A DNA stretch of 64,000 nt from positions 1-64,000 of the forward strand of contig JAUVXD010000004.1 in the NCBI GenBank assembly GCA_030603805.1, written 5' to 3'. Every line of letters begins with the position of its first letter. Positions within the stretch are counted from its first letter, which is position 1. The stretch comes from Acholeplasmataceae bacterium (lineage in GTDB: Bacteria; Bacillota_I; Bacilli_A; Acholeplasmatales; Acholeplasmataceae). Below, piece after piece: positions 12,350 through 14,462 of this stretch. A model generated the notes under the pieces. That model saw only the letters and a program-made list of their open reading frames with translations, made no database searches and was not told the DNA's origin. The translations under genes and the position numbers were made by a program.

Positions 12350-12769
12350 TTATATAATCTTTTTAGGATGTAGTGCTTTTCCATTATTTTCAGATAAGAT
12401 CTTATCCCGAACCAAGTCTAGTGCAGCTGTGATGAACATAAAACCAAGTGCCATAAGAATTGCATTTTGAAGTTGAAATCCTAAAAAGGCATAGAGTGCA
12501 AAAAGCACAGCTGTTACATAGTAAATTTGATGAATGACCTTGGATGTTTTGGGTTTGACTTCTTTGAGTTTTAAATACCCATCTTGTTGCAACATAGCAA
12601 CAAAGACAATGAAAAGTATGTATCCAATAATCCCACCGTAAGTCAGTAATAAAGATGAGTTCAAACTGGTTTCATGGTTAGGAATGATCCATTGAATCAT
12701 GGAATCTCCCAAAAGATAGATGGTGATAAAAACACCAATGATGAATGTAAATTTAAGAATGTCTTTCAT
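12350..12769 (-). CDS. Unknown small membrane protein, four helices
   Basis: I do not recognise this 139-residue protein. Hydrophobic segments lie at about residues 5-25, 42-63, 84-101 and 104-122. A basic linker, DGYLKLKEVKPKTSKV, joins helices two and three. AAGGGATATG precedes the ATG. It forms its own transcription unit with a clear terminator. There is no motif that suggests transport or enzymatic activity. Confidence 0.7.
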   Translation of the reverse strand: MKDILKFTFIIGVFITIYLLGDSMIQWIIPNHETSLNSSLLLTYGGIIGYILFIVFVAMLQQDGYLKLKEVKPKTSKVIHQIYYVTAVLFALYAFLGFQLQNAILMALGFMFITAALDLVRDKILSENNGKALHPKKII

Positions 12770-13082: not shown

Positions 13083-13418
13083 CTAAATTCTAACCCAGTC
13101 TGGTTCTCCGCAGTTGTCAAAATCTATACGAACCCAGTCTGGTTCTCCGCAGTTGTCAAAATCTAAACGAACCCAATCTGGTTCTCCACAATTGTCAAAA
13201 TCTAAACGAACCCAATCTGGTTCTCCGCAATTGTCAAAATCTAAACGAACCCAATCTGGTTCTCCGCAATTGTCAAAATCTAAACGAACCCAGTCTGGTT
13301 CTCCGCAGTTGTCAAAATCCAAAGTAACTTGTGAATCTGAAGCTGCAACATAATCAAAACTAGCTAATCCGAATAAACCTACGAGTAATACTGCTAAAAC
13401 GACTAAATATTTTTTCAT
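13083..13418 (-). CDS. Secreted tandem-repeat peptide precursor (candidate pheromone)
   Basis: A 111-residue protein with a Sec signal peptide (about residues 1-26, MKKYLVVLAVLL start, cleavage near VAA-S), a six-residue spacer SDSQVT, and six back-to-back copies of LDFDNCGEPDWVR. The last copy starts with Ile and the protein ends in a lone Ile. Repeat copies differ in DNA almost only at silent positions, so the peptide is under selection. Arg before each hydrophobic first residue would allow trypsin-like release. AAAGGGAGG precedes the ATG. A divergent HTH regulator is 100 bases away. A multi-copy signalling peptide is my favoured reading; a repeat-built surface protein or multi-core RiPP is less likely, since no modifying enzyme is nearby. 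Confidence 0.85.
   Translation of the reverse strand: MKKYLVVLAVLLVGLFGLASFDYVAASDSQVTLDFDNCGEPDWVRLDFDNCGEPDWVRLDFDNCGEPDWVRLDFDNCGEPDWVRLDFDNCGEPDWVRIDFDNCGEPDWVRI
13089..13322 (-). repeat. Six tandem 39-bp coding repeats
   Basis: Six contiguous in-frame units of 39 bp encode the 13-residue peptide. Units differ at third positions (AAC/AAT Asn, TGC/TGT Cys, GAC/GAT Asp, GGA kept). The only amino-acid change is Leu to Ile in the last unit. There are no spacers, so it is not a CRISPR array. Confidence 0.95.
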
Positions 13419-13436
13419 GGCGATGCCTCCCTTTTA

Positions 13437-13458
13437 CCTAATTGTATTATCAATTAGG
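13437..13458. promoter_or_regulatory. Perfect dyad between peptide gene and regulator gene (candidate operator)
   Basis: CCTAATTG (13437-13444) and CAATTAGG (13451-13458) are exact inverted repeats separated by TATTAT. The dyad lies immediately upstream of the peptide gene ribosome site and covers its probable -10. This is where a divergent HTH regulator would be expected to bind. Confidence 0.7.
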
Positions 13459-13468
13459 ATAAAAAAAC

Positions 13469-13484
13469 AGGGCGTATATGTCCT
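13469..13484. promoter_or_regulatory. Imperfect dyad in the same divergent region
   Basis: AGGGCGTATATGTCCT is a 16-bp near-palindrome, with 12 of 16 positions symmetric, between the perfect dyad and the regulator start. It may be a second binding site or part of the regulator promoter. Confidence 0.4.
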
Positions 13485-13520
13485 ATTCGTACATAAAATC
13501 ACAAGAAATGAGGTGAAAAA

Positions 13521-14462
13521 GTGAAATCTCAAGAACTTTGCATGTATTTAGAGCGTCTACGCTCTGCTAGAAACCTCTCTCAAGAAAGCTTCACAAATAA
13601 CGTTGTTTCACTTCGTCAATATCGACGTTACCTCAATGGTGAGTCTGAAATTCCATTTCAAGTCGTCGATATGCTCACTGAAAAACTTGGTGTTCAAACA
13701 ATCAATTTACTTCGAGAAATTGAAGCTGCAAGAATTGAAGAACAAAAAGATGTTGATAATTTTTATAACGATGTCGTGAATTATGCGAACTCAGATATAC
13801 TCTCAAAAATTGTACAATGGGAGAAAAAAGAGTTTGTAGATCCTCAAAATAAACTTTTCTATGAATACAGTTTGAATTTATTCAACGTGTTCAGTCAAAA
13901 AATGACTAAAGAGGATGCCATTATCCGAAATAAAACTCTCATCGATTATCCGAAAATCTTAAAGCGCTCAATTTTAACCAGTGTTGAAATGCTTGTTTTA
14001 AGTTCCATCATGGACCCGATTGATAACGAGAAAGAATCAAGAAATATTTCCGAAAAGCTTAGAGCATATTTGCTTGATAACTCGTCAATGATGACAACAG
14101 GCAGTACGATGGCATTCAATTTGATGCTCCATAGACTTGCTGTCTATTCTGGTAAGAATAAAAACTATCCCGATGTCATTAAGTATTGTCAATTAGGTAT
14201 TGAAAGCAATACAAGTCAAAGATTATATCATTTGATGGACTACTTCCACTATTTCAGTGCACTTGCATACTTTCGTATGGGTGATTTCGCAAACTATCAT
14301 GAACACTTAGTGAAATGCTTCCACATTTTATCATTTGAAGGTAATGAAAAAAAGATTGAAAAATTCACAAAGTTTATCAACGATGACTTTAATATCCATT
14401 TTCAGGATTTTGTCATCAATTATTATGCGAACAAAAAAGAAACAGTAGAGAGCGATTCATAA
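13521..14462 (+). CDS. HTH regulator with helical TPR-like C-terminus (RRNPP-like candidate)
   Basis: A 313-residue protein. Residues about 8-58 fit an XRE-type helix-turn-helix (LRSARNLSQESFTNN, then VVSLRQYRRYLNGESEIP and a closing LGV). The remaining 250 residues are all helix-forming. Helix pairs such as LMDYFHYFSALAYFRMGDF and the following NYHEHLVKCFHIL resemble TPR units. Size and layout match Rgg/PlcR/ComR-type receptors, which bind imported signalling peptides. The start is GTG at 13521 behind GAGGTG. It is divergent from the peptide-repeat gene, with a dyad between them. The assignment to RRNPP is inference; a peptide-independent XRE regulator remains possible. Confidence 0.8.
   Translation: MKSQELCMYLERLRSARNLSQESFTNNVVSLRQYRRYLNGESEIPFQVVDMLTEKLGVQTINLLREIEAARIEEQKDVDNFYNDVVNYANSDILSKIVQWEKKEFVDPQNKLFYEYSLNLFNVFSQKMTKEDAIIRNKTLIDYPKILKRSILTSVEMLVLSSIMDPIDNEKESRNISEKLRAYLLDNSSMMTTGSTMAFNLMLHRLAVYSGKNKNYPDVIKYCQLGIESNTSQRLYHLMDYFHYFSALAYFRMGDFANYHEHLVKCFHILSFEGNEKKIEKFTKFINDDFNIHFQDFVINYYANKKETVESDS

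Follow-up and report, generated by a model that had tools for sequence, protein, structure and literature searches.

The window, by which we mean the whole stretch of DNA analyzed (the first 64 kb of contig C37, from a genome of 2.06 Mb in 38 contigs), contains two divergent genes, one encoding a secreted peptide precursor and the other an HTH protein of 313 residues, with 102 bp between the precursor ATG and the GTG start of the receptor at 13521. The coordinates and frames given for this pair in the initial annotation were confirmed. The features of the locus are:

13083..13418, minus strand: gene of the exported 111-aa precursor with its six units of 13 aa (frame and coordinates verified; divergent homologues in relatives)
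13341..13418, minus strand: leader of Sec type covering roughly residues 1-26 (MKKYLVVLAVLLVGLFGLASFDYVAA), without a lipobox Cys (from sequence; hydrophobicity score 3.4; cleavage site inferred)
13089..13322, minus strand: six tandem units [LI]DFDNCGEPDWVR, residues 33-110 (TRF, sequence and codon comparison)
13437..13458, no strand: second perfect palindrome CCTAATTGTATTATCAATTAGG, 22 bp, over the precursor -10 (conserved only at precursor promoters of close relatives)
13441..13446, minus strand: TACAAT, the -10 hexamer of the precursor promoter, which lacks a good -35 (always 23 nt from the box at 79 sites in the genus)
13470..13483, no strand: predicted receptor operator (box) GGGCGTATATGTCC / GGACATATACGCCC, centred about -42 from the predicted precursor start (site scans; no binding data)
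13521..14462, plus strand: receptor, 313 aa, N-terminal HTH and all-helical C-terminal domain (sequence, alignment, AlphaFold2 model, profile search, Foldseek)
13521..13718, plus strand: DNA-binding HTH of the receptor, roughly its first 66 residues (sub-threshold HTH_3; model helices)

The precursor begins with MKKYLVVLAVLLVGLFGLASFDYVAASDSQVT (Lys-Lys and a hydrophobic leader), continues with five copies of LDFDNCGEPDWVR (units 1-5) and one of IDFDNCGEPDWVR (unit 6), and closes with a final Ile, so that the protein ends in VRI. Apart from Leu or Ile at the first position, the six units are identical. TRF reported the array as 5.9 copies of period 39 with a 95% match and found no other tandem repeat in the 64-kb window. 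Pairwise comparison of the copies yielded 32 synonymous and five nonsynonymous codon differences, all five of them Leu/Ile, and related species retain the precursor frame, the leader and the motif with differing repeat sequences. Since the copies differ mostly synonymously and the relatives keep frame, leader and motif, we consider the array to be more than chance. A resemblance of the precursor to DUF5395 (E 0.0012) was below the cut-off and was treated as chance. Downstream on the precursor strand, after a gap of about 315 bp, lies a gene for a 139-aa membrane protein (window 12350-12767), found in the same place in several relatives (L007, L011, L012, L259, L260).

Neither NCBIfam nor Pfam provided a family above cut-off by which to name the receptor. 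The Pfam domain HTH_3 was detected below threshold, the same domain being present in 29 of 40 relatives, while RNPP_C (PF18768), a trait of PlcR and NprR, is absent from the window receptor and weak in 3 of the 40. An AlphaFold2 model computed from an alignment of 40 homologues (mean pLDDT 88.8, pTM 0.75) was compared with the PDB using Foldseek, and the first 50 matches were PlcR, ComR, Rgg2/3, PrgX and ElrR, together with two other annotated transcriptional regulators; Rap, NprR and AimR receptors were not among the matches. The best match was PlcR (3u3w), with E-values down to 2e-6 for PlcR and 2e-5 for ComR at a probability of 1.00. The RRNPP(A) hallmark of an HTH joined to a TPR-like helical fold is fulfilled, but at TM values of only 0.3-0.56 and with poor whole-chain superposition. 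A profile search against the PDB recovered ElrR (4.8e-5), Rgg (1.8e-4) and PlcR (0.011, residues 1-253). The proposal that this protein is an RRNPP receptor is supported by a model that matches such receptors almost exclusively; the receptor is RRNPP-like and fits no named subfamily among those testable.

The receptor has homologues in 31 of 61 relatives, and a class-wide sample of 296 genomes contains the family in 55. Other hits came from MAGs of Acholeplasmataceae and Tenericutes, from Ca. Izimaplasma and from Paracholeplasma vituli. One congener, Peloplasma aerotolerans M4Ah, is cultured and free-living and has a nine-unit array of LDFHNSGNPEYEE. As this species is a cell-wall-less anaerobe of mud volcano origin (PMC11122141), the host group was rightly described as wall-less.

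A script applied to the fetched loci extracted 75 distinct full receptors preceded by 450 bp or more of sequence, and a partner was called, by a loose criterion, when a divergent ORF of 35-230 aa carried a hydrophobic leader and the motif. Such a gene accompanies 54 of the 75 receptors, compared with 7 of 84 control genes (other long ORFs, same criterion); the remaining 21 receptors have no recognisable leader-bearing partner. The pairing that the initial annotation had proposed to look for in relatives is thus retained, and the RRNPP(A) trait of an exported pheromone-precursor gene adjoining the receptor is met. Many of these genomes are MAGs with contigs broken at arrays, and leaders were judged by hydrophobicity. 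Repeat genes without a regulator, which would have counted against the pairing, were seen only where a contig ends inside the array: the orphans G014:C128 and G018:C20 were read as assembly breaks because the array is broken at the contig edge and the accompanying genes resemble the locus flanks.

The precursors share the motif F-x-[DN]-S-G-x-P-[ED]-x-[VI], present as one C-terminal copy or in arrays of up to 10; 27 of the 54 were scored with at least two copies (maximum 10, copy numbers being estimates). Across 49 precursors the core reads F (42), x, D/N, S, G, x, P (46), [ED] (49), x, V/I, with two or three of the 49 looking like false picks. Single-copy precursors in other genera are 45-80 aa long and terminate within or close to the motif, as do those with LGFGNSGEPESFEDIGII or FKKSGLPEWVETFA directly before the stop codon; a lone C-terminal copy is also the layout of classic pheromone precursors. 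Two claims about the peptide fared less well. Release at Arg does not hold as a general rule, as relatives carry Thr, Ser, Glu, Lys or Gly at that position and the conserved part is F..[DN]SG.P[ED].[VI]. Nor is it proven that repeat and receptor vary together: similarity between peptides rises with that between receptors (r 0.38), but once shared ancestry is taken into account the correlation is not clearly beyond it (partial r 0.10, p 0.05), and co-variation beyond phylogeny remains unsupported. In two near species the units are LGFDGNDAPDWVT x5 and LDFDGNDAPDWVS x5, all copies having changed together, suggesting that the copies evolve in concert.

Three further observations concern single genomes. 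At about 182-186 kb of G050:C1 (L025, L044), several near-identical small genes with a leader and GLP[DE] stand in tandem beside two divergent-type receptors, which reads as putative multi-copy signalling through gene duplication instead of an array. On G029:C1, two nearly identical receptors 12 kb apart (L038 at 382 kb, L039 at 395 kb) have single-copy peptides that differ slightly (LGFGNSGEPESFEDIGII and VGFGNSGEPEAFEDVDIP). The array at G002:C16:60853-61198 (L004) is frameshifted behind its second unit, which may be a genuine lesion caused by repeat slippage or may stem from faulty assembly.

The strongest evidence, which the initial annotation lacked, is a predicted ComR-box-like operator with a genome-wide regulon. 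The box GGGCGTATATGTCC, which is the perfect palindrome GGGCGTATACGCCC in some species and has the half-sites GGRC/GCCC in this genus, was found in every congeneric genome when one mismatch was permitted, with few matches for the reversed control. The full element, box + CTRTT + N19 + TANAAT, occurs at 79 sites in 20 congeneric genomes, including every precursor promoter found, whereas the reversed control gave 0. With the -10 placed at -12 to -7, the box falls at about -49 to -36, a position that, judged from spacing alone, is activator-type. Across the class, GACA-N4-[TC]G[TCA] is present in 38 of 55 intergenic regions against 1.3 expected from shuffling, and 36 of the 38 also have a -10-like hexamer, the spacing being 24 in nearly all. 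The palindrome CCTAATTG-N6-CAATTAGG was rejected as the regulon operator, since the genome contains it exactly only once and the control gave more near-matches. The palindrome CCTAATTGTATTATCAATTAGG is absent from other regulon promoters, and a second regulator may bind there.

Each box was assigned to the closest long ORF as its target, a procedure that will have made some errors. The targets include an SPFH/Band-7 membrane protein (12 genomes), large secreted DNRLRE proteins or RHS-core fragments (about six genomes), a DUF2691-like protein (five genomes), a 182-aa protein (three genomes) and radical-SAM/SPASM peptide maturases (two genomes). The source genome has as additional targets a trypsin-like secreted protease and a metallophosphoesterase-AAA protein. 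The box variant of a target is its genome's own precursor variant in 49 of 53 cases, against 22.5 expected (p about 1e-5, an optimistic value because the genomes are related). The radical-SAM/SPASM proteins (L206 454-1929, L215 3101-4570) resemble peptide maturases (PapB-like) and are encoded directly behind a box; peptide natural products may be under control of the circuit. In the source genome, one box-linked gene for a large secreted protein (L116 1-2998, G000:C10) appears as three successive ORFs, the later ones with RHS-like sequence, and is probably disrupted or misassembled.

The box resembles, as far as motif comparison goes, the streptococcal ComR box, which has been searched for as GACA-N4-TGTCCTG-N20-TA (PMC4072589). 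ComR operators combine an inner GACA/TGTC-type repeat, a T-rich spacer of constant length (PMC6703854) and a -10 without a -35, and precede the pheromone gene and targets (PMC5131891, PMC4072589, PMC6703854). Compared with GACA-N4-TGTC, the element described here is one nucleotide longer and degenerate in its second half. The likeness was recognised after the element had been defined and hence did not shape it. The receptor fold is like that of ComR-ComS (XIP), and the operator and autoinduction layouts, both predicted from sequence, resemble those of that system. ComS, however, is a very short single-copy product lacking a Sec leader, and comS follows comR, whereas the present precursor is divergent, Sec-exported, multi-copy and acidic. 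The short, leaderless, single-copy pheromone gene typical of ComR and Rgg is thus not found here, the precursor having a Sec leader and six copies.

With PlcR-PapR of the Bacillus cereus group the system shares the best Foldseek match, a profile match and a Sec-exported precursor, although the receptor has no RNPP_C match. The peptide itself we take to be unrelated in sequence to PapR. Multi-copy PapR-type propeptides exist, and papR lies downstream of its receptor (PMC9765709). Rgg2/Rgg3-SHP systems are PDB profile relatives in which a cytoplasmic HTH and helical receptor likewise adjoins the peptide gene, but SHPs, which leave the cell through PptAB, are small and hydrophobic, and multi-copy forms of them have not been found (PMC9765709). 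Rap, NprR and AimR systems are similar in that a Sec-exported precursor may contain several mature peptides, as many as six, of identical or near-identical sequence (PMC9765709, PMC11343458), and proteolysis of duplicated Phr propeptides has been reported (PMC11343458); they differ in that the precursor follows the receptor, and arrays here reach 10. The trait common to PlcR, NprR, Rap and AimR, a pheromone gene immediately downstream of the receptor, is not met, the precursor being divergent. The six units fit the initial proposal of several signal copies per precursor, but multi-copy precursors as such are not new: for AimR, NprR, PlcR and Rap the literature documents propeptides containing as many as six identical copies, with none for Rgg and ComR (PMC9765709), and an alpha-factor-like precursor is for this reason not a new kind.

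We regard RRNPP-type peptide quorum sensing with positive feedback as the best explanation and hold it with considerable confidence, although no step has been shown experimentally and the ends of the mature peptide are unknown. From the computed gene pair, leader and repeats, we propose that the precursor would be exported via its Sec leader and that, outside the cell, the six repeats would be cut into acidic peptides of about 10-13 residues, a cleavage that is inferred. The peptides would be re-imported, again by inference, through an oligopeptide permease; permease-type genes were identified, with two SBP_bac_5 proteins over cut-off in the genome, one of them beside permease- and ATPase-like ORFs (read by eye). 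The receptor fold, the operator and the regulon sites are likewise computed, and we infer from them that the cytoplasmic HTH/TPR-like receptor would bind the peptide and activate, rather than repress, promoters with the palindrome about 42 bp upstream of the start. The precursor's own promoter would be among these, providing positive feedback, and the regulon would comprise a small set of membrane, secreted and biosynthetic genes. Density dependence is also inferred.

The sign of the response could be the reverse, the receptor being active without peptide and the regulon switched off by it, as in PrgX/iCF10 and AimR. RRNPP receptors of both signs exist and the sign is unmeasured in our data, but the precursor lies under a box at an activator-like position without a -35, as in ComR promoters, and we judge inhibition unlikely. 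Slightly less plausible still is a signal that is not intercellular, being sensed within the producing cell or reporting export or proteolysis capacity; paralogous clade-B receptors beside small ORFs without a clear leader would suit such a role, yet window-type precursors have a strong leader throughout and the genome encodes oligopeptide-binding proteins. That the repeat protein is an effector (secreted bacteriocin-like peptides or a surface polymer), merely a target of a regulator sensing something else, might be supposed from the likeness of its promoter to other target promoters and from the common occurrence of tandem repeats in surface proteins, but seems improbable given that the precursor stays beside the receptor across genera as other targets change, is elsewhere reduced to one C-terminal copy in a 45-80-aa protein, has acidic units and no consistent adjoining immunity or transporter gene, and faces a receptor with a peptide-receptor fold.

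Peptide quorum sensing thus remains our preferred reading, and the claim that none had been described in this group stands as far as could be determined: the open full-text literature, limited to open-licence papers, contained none for Acholeplasma or other Mollicutes, and those RRNPP papers that were searched for the names of these groups made no mention of them, which is not proof of absence. The novelty lies in the receptor family, in the regulon predicted for it and in the fact that Mollicutes carry this family. A gene pair with its own DNA control sites, recurring in many relatives, points to a cell-to-cell peptide language unreported in these bacteria, and extends a ComR-box-like promoter well beyond the streptococci. 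The predicted regulon (precursor, SPFH, DNRLRE/RHS-type proteins, radical-SAM maturases, trypsin-like protease) offers direct test targets, cultured P. aerotolerans makes the circuit testable, and the precursors, with 1 to 10 pheromone copies each, form a natural series. On balance, and with some reserve, we favor a distinct class-wide RRNPP subfamily of wall-less bacteria and their relatives, in which tandem arrays of 1 to about 10 copies are common and concerted between species and a second, paralogous channel in the same cells has a neighbouring ORF without a clear leader. Were this true, array length could set the signal dose, and Mollicutes would have their first defined peptide language.

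The second receptor is encoded in the same genome (G000:C32:21911-22834; L050 2909-3835) and is 30% identical to the first. In its clade-B relatives the box is a different one (AGRGCAAATCTGTCC), and the divergent ORF, of 44-61 aa, has no clear leader but often contains G-x-P-[ED]. Receptor and small ORF possibly constitute a second, leaderless channel, the pheromone role of the ORFs being open. Among the second-receptor loci (L021, L032-L037, L040), the receptor gene is in several relatives convergent to a gyrA-like gene.
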